The notes under the pieces were generated by a model, which saw only the letters and a list, made by a program, of their open reading frames with translations, was not told the DNA's origin and did no database searches. A stretch of DNA of 64,000 nucleotides, taken from NCBI RefSeq assembly GCF_000959445.1, contig NZ_CP009631.1, positions 62,001-126,000 of the forward strand, read 5' to 3'. Origin of the DNA: Burkholderia vietnamiensis LMG 10929. GTDB lineage: Bacteria > Pseudomonadota > Gammaproteobacteria > Burkholderiales > Burkholderiaceae. Both the position numbers and the translations under genes were made by a program. This document shows positions 6,633-51,584 of the stretch, piece by piece (the first letter of the stretch is position 1; every line of letters starts with the position of its first letter).

Positions 6633-6773
6633 ACGGTTTCCGTTAAGTGTGTACAGGTTGACCGGTGCGGCCGAGTACATTGCGTTGCTGGTGGAACCAG
6701 CTCGACGTGGCGGAAGAATCCGTATGACGCGAGACAGGACAGCCACCGGCGATGCACGCGACGGCGCACAACG

Positions 6774-6862
6774 GCTGCCCAGGCGAACGGCAAAAACGGC
6801 GCCCCGCGCTTCACGGTGGGATGCTCCACCTTGAACCCGAAGGGTTCTATCGCCAGTCACGC
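6774..6862 (-). ncRNA. ZTP (pfl motif) riboswitch in the glyA leader
   Basis: Read on the minus strand, the leader holds GTGACTGGCGA, then a hairpin, then GGTGG...CCCACC with GTGAAGC just after it, and finally GCCGTTCGCCTGGGCAG. These are the conserved blocks of the ZTP/pfl aptamer in the right order: the 5' GACUGGCG strand, the GUGG/CCAC stem with GAAGC, and the 3' CGCCUGGGCA strand that closes the pseudoknot. The class responds to ZMP/ZTP, which accumulate when 10-formyl-THF is short, and it commonly controls glyA, purH and folD. Immediately downstream, GGGCAGCC (at 6772-6779) can pair with GGCTGTCC (at 6737-6744), giving a helix that would compete with the aptamer's 3' strand. Confidence 0.85.
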
Positions 6863-6880
6863 AGGGGTGATGAGCGCGTT

Positions 6881-13508: not shown

Positions 13509-13584
13509 GGGTCGTTAGCTCAGTTGGTAGAGCAGCGGACTTTTAATCCGTTGGTCGCGTGTTCGAGTCACGCACGGCCTACCA
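13509..13584 (+). tRNA. tRNA-Lys (UUU)
   Basis: A 76-base cloverleaf with encoded CCA. The acceptor stem GGGTCGT pairs with ACGGCCT (one G-U at the end and one internal U-G). The D-arm contains TAGCTCAGTTGGTAGAG, and the T-arm contains GTTCGAGTC. The anticodon stem GCGGA/TCCGT encloses loop CTTTTAA, so the anticodon is UUU, which reads Lys codons. Confidence 0.97.
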
Positions 13585-50189: not shown

Positions 50190-50218
50190 TTGCCAGCTGC
50201 GCGGCGACCGGGTATAAA
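50190..50218 (+). promoter_or_regulatory. Sigma-70 promoter of the aroG leader
   Basis: TTGCCA (50190-50195), a 17-base spacer and TATAAA (50213-50218). The transcript would begin near 50225, some 30 bases before the leader peptide ATG. Confidence 0.8.
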
Positions 50219-50255
50219 TTGCGAATCGACTTTTTCGACGAACCGAATCTCCGTC

Positions 50256-50321
50256 ATGTCCGCCAAGTTTTATTTTTACTTTTTTTGGCATCTCAGACCG
50301 CTGGCGGATCGAGAGGGTTGA
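50256..50321 (+). CDS. Aromatic leader peptide of aroG (attenuator)
   Basis: A 21-codon ORF encoding MSAKFYFYFFWHLRPLADRE plus a final Gly, then TGA. Residues 5-11 are seven consecutive aromatic codons (Phe, Tyr, Phe, Tyr, Phe, Phe, Trp). It lies between a sigma-70 promoter and an intrinsic terminator, 189 bases before the gene for DAHP synthase. This is the classic layout of a ribosome-mediated attenuator such as pheL or trpL. Scarcity of charged tRNA-Phe, -Tyr or -Trp would stall the ribosome and allow read-through into aroG. The ribosome site is weak. Confidence 0.85.
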   Translation: MSAKFYFYFFWHLRPLADREG

Positions 50322-50382
50322 TGGCGCGTAAAGCGCAACCGAAATTCCCGAAAAACCGCCGGCGAACCCGGCGGTTTTTTTT
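50260..50382 (+). promoter_or_regulatory. Transcription attenuator upstream of aroG
   Basis: Four segments can form exclusive helices. Segment 1 CCGCCA (50260-50265) pairs with segment 2 TGGCGG (50302-50307). Segment 2 in longer form, CGCTGGCGG (50299-50307), pairs with segment 3 CCGCCGGCG (50356-50364) through nine pairs, one of them G-U. Segment 3 CCGCCGG pairs with segment 4 CCGGCGG (50368-50374), extended by A/T pairs into the terminator with eight T. A ribosome stalled on the aromatic codons (50268-50288) covers segment 1 and leaves segment 2 free to block the terminator. Confidence 0.8.
50351..50382 (+). terminator. Attenuator terminator before aroG
   Basis: AAAAACCGCCGG, CGAAC and CCGGCGGTTTTTTTT: a 12-bp stem ending in eight T. 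It lies between the leader peptide and aroG, so full-length aroG mRNA requires anti-termination here. Confidence 0.93.
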
Positions 50383-50510
50383 CGCCCTTCGCCAACCGGC
50401 CGTCGCAGCGGATCCCGCCGCACCGGCCGGCGCCGACCGAATCACCCGAATCGATGAATCTGCCGCACGCGCTCTGACCGAACGGCGCCCGTAAAACCAG
50501 GAGAACCAGC

Positions 50511-51584
50511 ATGCCCCCGCACAACACCGACGACGTCCGCATCCGCGAACTCAAGGAACTGACGCCGCCCGCCCACCTGATCCGCGAATTCGCATGCTCC
50601 GAGGCCGCGTCCGAGCTGATCTACGAGTCGCGCCGTTCGATGCACCGGATCCTGCACGGGATGGACGACCGGCTGATCGTCGTGATCGGGCCGTGCTCGA
50701 TCCACGACACGAAGGCGGCGCTCGAATACGCGGGGCGGCTCGTGAAGGAGCGCGAGCGCTTCAAGGGCGAGCTGGAAATCGTGATGCGCGTGTACTTCGA
50801 AAAGCCGCGCACGACGGTCGGCTGGAAGGGGCTGATCAACGATCCGCATCTCGACAACAGCTTCAAGATCAACGAAGGGCTGCGCACCGCGCGCGAGCTG
50901 CTGCTGCAGATCAACGAGATGGGGCTGCCGGCCGCGACCGAATACCTCGACATGATCAGCCCGCAGTACATCGCCGACCTGATCTCGTGGGGCGCGATCG
51001 GCGCGCGCACGACCGAGTCGCAGGTGCATCGCGAGCTCGCGTCGGGGCTGTCGTGCCCGGTCGGCTTCAAGAACGGCACCGACGGCAACGTGAAGATCGC
51101 CGTCGACGCGATCAAGGCCGCGTCGCAGCCGCACCATTTCCTGTCGGTGACCAAGGGCGGCCATTCGGCGATCGTGTCGACGGCCGGCAACGAAGACTGT
51201 CACGTGATCCTGCGCGGCGGCAAGACGCCGAACTACGACGCGGACAGCGTGAACGCCGCCTGCGCGGACATCGGCAAGGCCGGTCTCGCCGCGCGCCTGA
51301 TGATCGACGCGAGCCATGCGAACAGCTCGAAGAAGCACGAGAACCAGATCCCGGTGTGCGCGGACATCGGCCGCCAGGTCGCCGCCGGCGACGAGCGGAT
51401 CGTCGGCGTGATGATCGAGTCGCACCTCGTCGAGGGGCGCCAGGACCTGAAGGAAGGCTGCGCGCTGACCTACGGCCAGAGCATCACCGACGCATGCATC
51501 GCGTGGGACGACAGCGTGAAGGTGCTCGAAGGGCTCGCGGAAGCGGTGAAGGCGCGCCGCGTCGCACGCGGCAGCGGCAACTGA
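50511..51584 (+). CDS. aroG: 3-deoxy-7-phosphoheptulonate (DAHP) synthase, AroG/AroF type I
   Basis: The 357-residue class I DAHP synthase joins PEP and erythrose 4-phosphate in the first step of the shikimate pathway. Motifs: IGPCSIHD (metal Cys62), KPRTTVGWKGLINDPHLD, TEYLDMISPQYIADLISWGAIGARTTESQ, VGFKNGTDGN and IDASHANSSKKHENQ. It is the allosteric 350-residue type, but the effector (Phe, Tyr or Trp) cannot be assigned from sequence alone. AGGAGAA lies before ATG 50511. Expression is probably set by the leader attenuator at 50256-50382. Confidence 0.96.
   Translation: MPPHNTDDVRIRELKELTPPAHLIREFACSEAASELIYESRRSMHRILHGMDDRLIVVIGPCSIHDTKAALEYAGRLVKERERFKGELEIVMRVYFEKPRTTVGWKGLINDPHLDNSFKINEGLRTARELLLQINEMGLPAATEYLDMISPQYIADLISWGAIGARTTESQVHRELASGLSCPVGFKNGTDGNVKIAVDAIKAASQPHHFLSVTKGGHSAIVSTAGNEDCHVILRGGKTPNYDADSVNAACADIGKAGLAARLMIDASHANSSKKHENQIPVCADIGRQVAAGDERIVGVMIESHLVEGRQDLKEGCALTYGQSITDACIAWDDSVKVLEGLAEAVKARRVARGSGN

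Follow-up and report, generated by a model that had tools for sequence, protein, structure and literature searches.

A putative ribosome-mediated attenuator before aroG of Burkholderia vietnamiensis, with aromatic codons in register with an antiterminator, recurs beyond the Burkholderiales

The gene aroG of Burkholderia vietnamiensis lies in a 64-kb window, the whole stretch of DNA analysed here, and its product matches the AroG family NF006723 of NCBIfam with 606.9 bits (cut-off 568). Upstream of it, and downstream of tldD on the same strand, is a compact set of candidate regulatory elements (Table 1). An initial annotation of this DNA had proposed a 21-codon ORF with seven aromatic codons at positions 5-11, and the codon read-out bears this out: the ORF opens with ATG TCC GCC AAG, runs through the aromatic block into CAT and ends on TGA, 189 nt before the aroG ATG. 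All four Phe codons of the block are TTT. Nowhere else in the six frames of the window do five or more aromatic codons follow one another, and 60 dinucleotide shuffles of the window yielded no such run. The terminator with eight T that had been described could also be located, as CCGCCGG-cgaac-CCGGCGG followed by the T run (50356-50382), and 136 nt separate the end of its 3' arm from the aroG ATG. Elsewhere in the window we found a ZMP/ZTP riboswitch on the minus strand (6770-6870; 62.8 bits, gathering score 39) and, on the plus strand, a tRNA-Lys (TTT) gene (13509-13584), the only tRNA gene detected.

Table 1. Candidate attenuator elements and the putative regulated gene, in positions of the window
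Feature	Position	Strand	Remarks
-35-like TTGCCA	50190..50195	+	17-nt spacer to -10
-10-like TATAAA	50213..50218	+	putative transcription start near 50225
Leader peptide ORF MSAKFYFYFFWHLRPLADREG	50256..50321	+	codon read-out; similar leaders precede aroG in relatives
Strand 1 TCCGCCA	50259..50265	+	possible partner 50302-50308; occurs regularly in Burkholderia and close genera only
Control codons Phe-Tyr-Phe-Tyr-Phe-Phe-Trp (codons 5-11)	50268..50288	+	TTT TAT TTT TAC TTT TTT TGG
Strand 2 CGCTGGCGG	50299..50307	+	near-copy of terminator 3' arm; pairs with strand 3
Strand 3 CCGCCGGCG	50356..50364	+	terminator 5' arm (50356-50362) and antiterminator 3' half
Strand 4 CCGGCGG	50368..50374	+	terminator 3' arm
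Eight-T run	50375..50382	+	expected 3' end of short RNA
aroG, class I DAHP synthase	50511..51584	+	putative regulated gene; NCBIfam NF006723 AroG

The stretch first described as a sigma-70-like promoter (50190-50218) is promoter-like, and the same elements stand before the leaders of relatives such as L001 and L091. A strict scanner for promoters and terminators listed neither a promoter nor a plus-strand terminator at the leader; it missed the promoter because the -10 element does not end in T, and the terminator probably because the first T's were counted as stem. In Burkholderia and its kin the -10 box lies about 37 nt 5' of the leader ATG, so that the B. vietnamiensis leader would carry a 5' UTR of about 31 nt and would not be leaderless.

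Aromatic leaders recur before aroG in relatives, as had been expected of a functional device. From at least 591 AroG relatives we took the 80 best loci in named genomes, with protein similarity as the sole criterion, and 47 of these 80, from alpha-, beta- and gammaproteobacterial records, have an aromatic leader ORF followed by a terminator. They include Burkholderia, Paraburkholderia, Caballeronia, Trinickia, Cupriavidus and the Oxalobacteraceae, and also Bordetella, Xanthomonas, Stenotrophomonas, Dyella and Devosia. Leader and terminator were not both found at the enteric, Vibrio-group, Chromobacterium and Methylotenera loci of this set, and Entomohabitans (L080) has an aromatic ORF with no terminator. 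At one of the 47 loci, from Candidatus Burkholderia humilis (L012), the ORF departs from the common frame inside the aromatic block and stays open across the terminator, which may mark an attenuator in decay in a symbiont; this locus was counted and left out of the alignment list. Alignment A1 comprises 25 of 47 listed sequences.

A covariance model of 25 sequences that describes only the helix of strands 3 and 4 (R1) found matches at E<=0.01 in 125 of 300 Burkholderiales genomes, many of the weaker ones being bare terminators. At E<=1.1e-4 there are 78 full-length matches, each from a different genome; AroG lies 25-292 nt from every one of them, on the same strand, and a search for ORFs recovered leader and terminator at 76. 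AroG itself is present at E<=1e-100 in 229 of the 300 genomes; where a full-length match is lacking, one AroG locus (L205) in the best 80 among the matches listed has leader and terminator. Three genomes of one genus in the family of B. vietnamiensis (g2: G030, G074 and G209, 1.7-2.1 Mb) contain AroG without a match to the leader, so not every member of the family need have the element. Across the phylum, 60 of 397 genomes matched at E<=1e-4, and aroG adjoins the match at all 22 loci taken from this search (L180-L201, another class included; L198 is the same place as L122). In the B. vietnamiensis genome R1 gives ten matches at E<=10, and the aroG leader is the only full-length one, the rest covering the terminator part. 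On one AroG FastTree (260 rows) leader presence changes 15 times, against a mean of 85 in 50 label shuffles, in a sample that is enriched for leaders, leaves out L205 (whose leader equals that of L029) and has the states of L191 and L160 set by hand.

Several matches fell outside this pattern. Twelve weaker or partial ones (L164, L169-L179) were set aside: most look like terminators after other genes, and AroG accompanies only L172. At L176 (genome G114, minus strand, about 600-740 of the reverse complement) an aromatic ORF, MVTFSVVYNVYFYWYRSSGGAKGC, and a terminator precede a gene other than aroG, a 204-residue ORF with no Pfam match. A MAG labelled Anaerolineae (L050), a label that may be wrong, has an aromatic leader, MSRYFSFFSWYGYF, before an aroG 68% like that of B. 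vietnamiensis, with a hairpin that by eye is different, long and GC-rich.

For comparison between leaders we assembled 138 distinct ones. The set excludes the own-genome loci L081-L090, L198, and L030 and L050, which were removed for their weak hairpins; L191 was missed (2-nt loop), and L080, having no terminator, was never in. Because our sets are enriched for leaders and contain close relatives, the fractions given below are not prevalences.

Most leaders appear to lack a conventional ribosome-binding site. A Shine-Dalgarno match of at least four bases precedes 6 of 138 leader ORFs and is absent in the other 132, against 90 of 138 aroG starts, the latter placed by alignment. A TANNNT box stands 5-9 nt 5' of the leader ATG in 44 of 137 leaders (mononucleotide shuffles 9.1, sd 2.7) and, with its last base relaxed, in 72 of 137 (shuffles 26.4, sd 4.5); one of the 138 leaders was left out of the upstream-box and Shine-Dalgarno analyses for its short upstream sequence. 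The relaxed box tracks families. It is found in all four named alphaproteobacterial leaders, all six from the Lysobacterales and Rhodanobacteraceae, the sole leader from the Alcaligenaceae (Bordetella), and 9/9 and 8/9 in two further Burkholderiales families; it is rare in named Burkholderiaceae (1/16) and Oxalobacteraceae (4/12). A -10 box so close to the ATG, together with the missing Shine-Dalgarno sequence, suggests that in whole lineages, that of B. vietnamiensis not among them, the leader mRNA is probably leaderless and starts at or next to the AUG.

We then considered the helices. The initial annotation had described three mutually exclusive ones, for which we computed energies of -9.0 (1:2), -14.6 (2:3) and -13.1 kcal/mol (3:4; -18.4 with its A/U extension). 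The 2:3 antiterminator and the 3:4 terminator are supported. The 1:2 protector helix is present in Burkholderia and kin and lacks support as a family feature; it shows no covariation (78.9% of cells paired), and without a ribosome the B. vietnamiensis leader folds into 2:3 (0.98), not 1:2. The covariation that had been anticipated for the other two helices was borne out in part. For 3:4, three of five measures place it above every one of 500 shuffles, and the two that count pairs or types do not; for 2:3 the level was reached by 56-87 of 500 shuffles, and this helix is conserved rather than covarying. Covariation is modest because the core GGCGG:CCGCC is nearly invariant. The fold of the whole leader is by itself weak evidence (z -1.90; 11 of 200 shuffles equally good).

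We also scored the pairing between strand 2 and strand 3 of the same leader. It beats a shuffled linker in 99 of 136 leaders (p<0.05, uncorrected), and did so in 39 of 48 leaders of a smaller set; in some Devosia the 2:3 pairing is short and not above shuffled sequence (L063, p 0.32). When strands were swapped between leaders, the own strand was favoured in 97 of 136, a count over related and thus not independent sequences, and among 90 rarer strand-3 types in 55, which is not clear (p 0.077). Two of the 138 leaders were left out of these pairing tests, and of the simulation and switch placement that follow, on account of peptide length.

In the simulation, the transcript up to the terminator loop was folded with a ribosome placed on each codon in turn, its footprint spanning 15 nt on the 5' side and 12 nt on the 3' side of the first A-site base. 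For the B. vietnamiensis leader, strand 3 is held upstream with P>=0.76 while the A site is on codons 2-11, with 0.02-0.03 on codons 12-15, at most 0.24 up to the stop and 0.16 on it, so the modelled switch sits at the end of the aromatic block. The last codons of the block are sensitive to the settings. If the RNA starts 4 nt later, at the putative start 50225, codons 10 and 11 drop to 0.39 and 0.49; a ribosome at Trp11 leaves strand 3 partly held (0.28-0.49), compared with 0.76 when the transcript starts 4 nt further upstream; and with a front edge of 13 nt or more the Trp11 value falls to 0.01-0.03 while Phe5 to Phe9 remain at 0.82 or above. Once strand 4 is present, the terminator always wins at equilibrium, and the choice between the helices must therefore be kinetic. 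The formation of 2:3 without a ribosome implies that an untranslated leader should read through, unlike in the trp model.

The same register appears across leaders, with a less complete release. Averaged over 136 leaders, strand 3 is held at about 0.80 while the ribosome is three to seven codons short of the last aromatic codon; the value is 0.64 on that codon and 0.39-0.46 from two to ten codons beyond it; it returns to 0.54-0.69 from the eleventh codon past the block, and is 0.60 with the ribosome on the stop and 0.61 with none. That strand 3 is held again in the mean suggests a brief or incomplete release in many leaders, whose stop codon is, in the model, too distal for a ribosome there to go on covering strand 2. 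From structure alone, 104 of 136 leaders could be assigned a switch codon, the remaining 32 having no clear switch. Around it, the aromatic fraction is 0.67-0.87 over the five codons before, 0.35 at the switch, 0.14 one codon on and 0 at the seventh. Measured from the last aromatic codon, the switch position has an SD of 2.54 codons, slightly below the 2.89 found from the ATG and the 3.12 from the stop, a margin too small for us to take as proof.

Taken together, these observations argue for a ribosome-mediated transcription attenuator of aroG, as the initial annotation had put forward, and we give this reading a probability of about 90%. The locus joins a short ORF, predicted to be translated, with a run of codons for products of the pathway; an intrinsic terminator between that ORF and the gene, in B. 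vietnamiensis as in the named relatives; an antiterminator that excludes the terminator and beats shuffled linkers in most leaders, its covariation weak; and control codons in register with 2:3, in B. vietnamiensis and in the leaders with a placeable switch, with the reservations that Trp11 is marginal and release near the stop incomplete in the mean. In such a device, scarcity of charged Phe- or Tyr-tRNA, and less surely of Trp-tRNA, would stall the ribosome on codons 5-11, leaving strand 2 free to pair with strand 3 as the latter emerges; with 2:3 formed, the 3:4 terminator would come too late and RNA polymerase would continue into aroG. When the aromatic tRNAs are charged, the ribosome would advance to codon 12 and on to the stop, covering strand 2, and strand 3 would be free to form 3:4, ending transcription near 50382. 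Codon choice within the block may contribute: TTT accounts for 372 of 518 Phe codons in the blocks of the 138 leaders and for 5 of 105 in six ORFs close by in the window, a preference that may keep the stretch unpaired or slow its decoding.

Which tRNAs such an attenuator would sense is a separate matter. All three residues occur in the densest 8-codon block of 72 of the 138 leaders; another 59 have Phe with Tyr there, 2 have Phe with Trp, and 5 have no aromatic residue but Phe. The same attenuator could respond to just Phe and Tyr, with little contribution from the block's final Trp codon, and we regard this as a possibility to be taken seriously, if not one we would bet on. Trp is missing from 64 of the blocks and present in 74, its state changes 14 times among the leader-bearing rows of the AroG tree (48 when shuffled), and its position comes out as marginal when simulated; where B. 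vietnamiensis has Trp11, Cupriavidus lacunae (L013) has Ser, a Burkholderiales MAG (L014) has Ala and Gly is found in a member of the B. vietnamiensis family (L092). According to the excerpted text of PMC11802643, moreover, the Phe-Tyr-Phe leader aroR of Corynebacterium glutamicum answers to Phe and not to Tyr. Against a Phe/Tyr sensor, all three residues do occur together in just over half of the leaders, and in some clades Trp lies inside the block (FYFWYYGF in L056, YFWYFSY in L187). The original proposal that one device reads all three tRNAs is thus right for the residues present, and on paper the B. vietnamiensis leader is a three-tRNA sensor; that all three are read is not established, given the leaders without Trp, its changes on the tree and the marginal Trp11. 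The shared core, judged from the codons, is Phe and Tyr.

It is improbable that attenuation is only part of the story and that the short terminated RNA or the peptide acts in trans, as is reported of rnTrpL and peTrpL of Sinorhizobium. The alphaproteobacterial trpL RNA, as portrayed in the consulted sections of PMC7298713, is leaderless too, with roles in trans. Beyond the aromatic block, however, the peptide varies between clades, its reading frame included, which makes a role for the peptide unlikely: the codons over strand 2 read PLAEEG in L056 and PWRW in L023. That an aromatic ORF merely happens to stand next to a terminator of the usual constitutive sort, as similar terminators elsewhere in the B. 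vietnamiensis genome might suggest, is so remote in the face of the conservation in three classes and the register results that we dismiss it.

The genomic setting agrees with the contrast first drawn to enteric TyrR control. In the B. vietnamiensis genome we found no match to TrpR and no TyrR above its cut-off; the 21 sub-threshold TyrR matches, which almost without exception cover the middle of the profile, were taken for other sigma-54 activators. There is no match to a class II DAHP synthase, and a second AroG (61% identity, contig C2) has no leader. Reporter data exist for Ralstonia solanacearum, which we take to belong to the same family as B. vietnamiensis. In the excerpts of PMC6379268, aroG1-lacZ rises in rich medium from 47 to 702 Miller units when aroG2 is deleted, and drops to 316 in that deletion with 1 mM Phe; aroG2-lacZ behaves like aroG1-lacZ, each paralogue rising on deletion of the other. 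These values fit feedback by aromatic supply and are not creditable to a leader, and the rise of both paralogues means that another control may exist.

A wider reading, to which we incline only tentatively and at slightly less than even odds, is that all these leaders form one attenuator family, co-inherited or co-transferred with aroG across alpha-, beta- and gammaproteobacteria, that serves as the main gate to the shikimate pathway in genomes without TyrR and TrpR and pools the charging of two or three aromatic tRNAs, in many lineages on a leaderless mRNA without Shine-Dalgarno sequence onto which ribosomes load at the 5' end. If true, this would explain control of shikimate entry in many Pseudomonadota outside the E. 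coli TyrR/TrpR model. It would also offer a ready Rfam-type family, a defined target for aromatic overproduction strains (for example in Cupriavidus), and a natural series, with and without the Trp codon, leaderless or not, for how attenuators sum several tRNA signals.

The enteric leaders pheL and trpL respond to one amino acid each and precede genes of terminal branches, and ilv leaders read several branched-chain amino acids of one pathway. Like the ilv leaders, the aroG leaders hold codons for several amino acids each, in their case aromatic ones. With pheL and trpL they have in common the leader ORF, control codons, antiterminator and terminator (see also the excerpted part of PMC11802643), and they differ from that single-amino-acid, terminal-branch type. 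No Rfam family, leader families and T-box included, reached its gathering score on the leader or in ten relatives; seven matches at E 0.1-0.65, among them STnc240 and sroD and four lying over the terminator, were far below theirs.

We found no report of a proteobacterial aroG attenuator in the open-access literature, where older attenuator work is thinly covered. Vitreschak et al. 2004, Merino and Yanofsky 2005 and Lopatovskaya et al. may list one. The word aroG is absent from the main texts of PMC2965389, PMC4833913 and PMC2864571. Merino's database is cited, in a passage of PMC1173090, for an attenuator before a DAHP synthase-tyrA operon in Vibrio. The predicted uORFC-13-1 motif before aroF of Acholeplasma (24 sequences, from Acholeplasma and environmental DNA) likewise places a predicted uORF with Phe codons beside a terminator before a DAHP synthase gene; it differs in requiring at least one Phe codon, with no Tyr/Trp run described in the portion of PMC8632094 consulted. 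The trpL of Sinorhizobium meliloti, a leader ORF whose RNA begins with the AUG itself (excerpts of PMC7298713 and PMC10117765), resembles many aroG leaders in that probable start and differs in sensing Trp only, before trpE, and from the B. vietnamiensis leader in its lack of a 5' UTR. Closest is aroR-aroF of C. glutamicum, a ribosome-mediated attenuator with Phe-Tyr-Phe codons (Neshat et al. 2014, as summarised in parts of PMC11802643 and PMC4046766). It, too, is an aromatic-codon attenuator before a DAHP synthase gene; it is actinobacterial, has three control residues without Trp and is reported to respond to Phe but not Tyr. We compare the class of mechanism alone. The kind is thus already known; neither Rfam nor the literature searched yielded the family before proteobacterial aroG, the blocks of three residues or the likely leaderless mRNA. 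Since a DAHP-synthase attenuator is known in Corynebacterium, we regard the aroG leaders as a widespread addition to a known kind.
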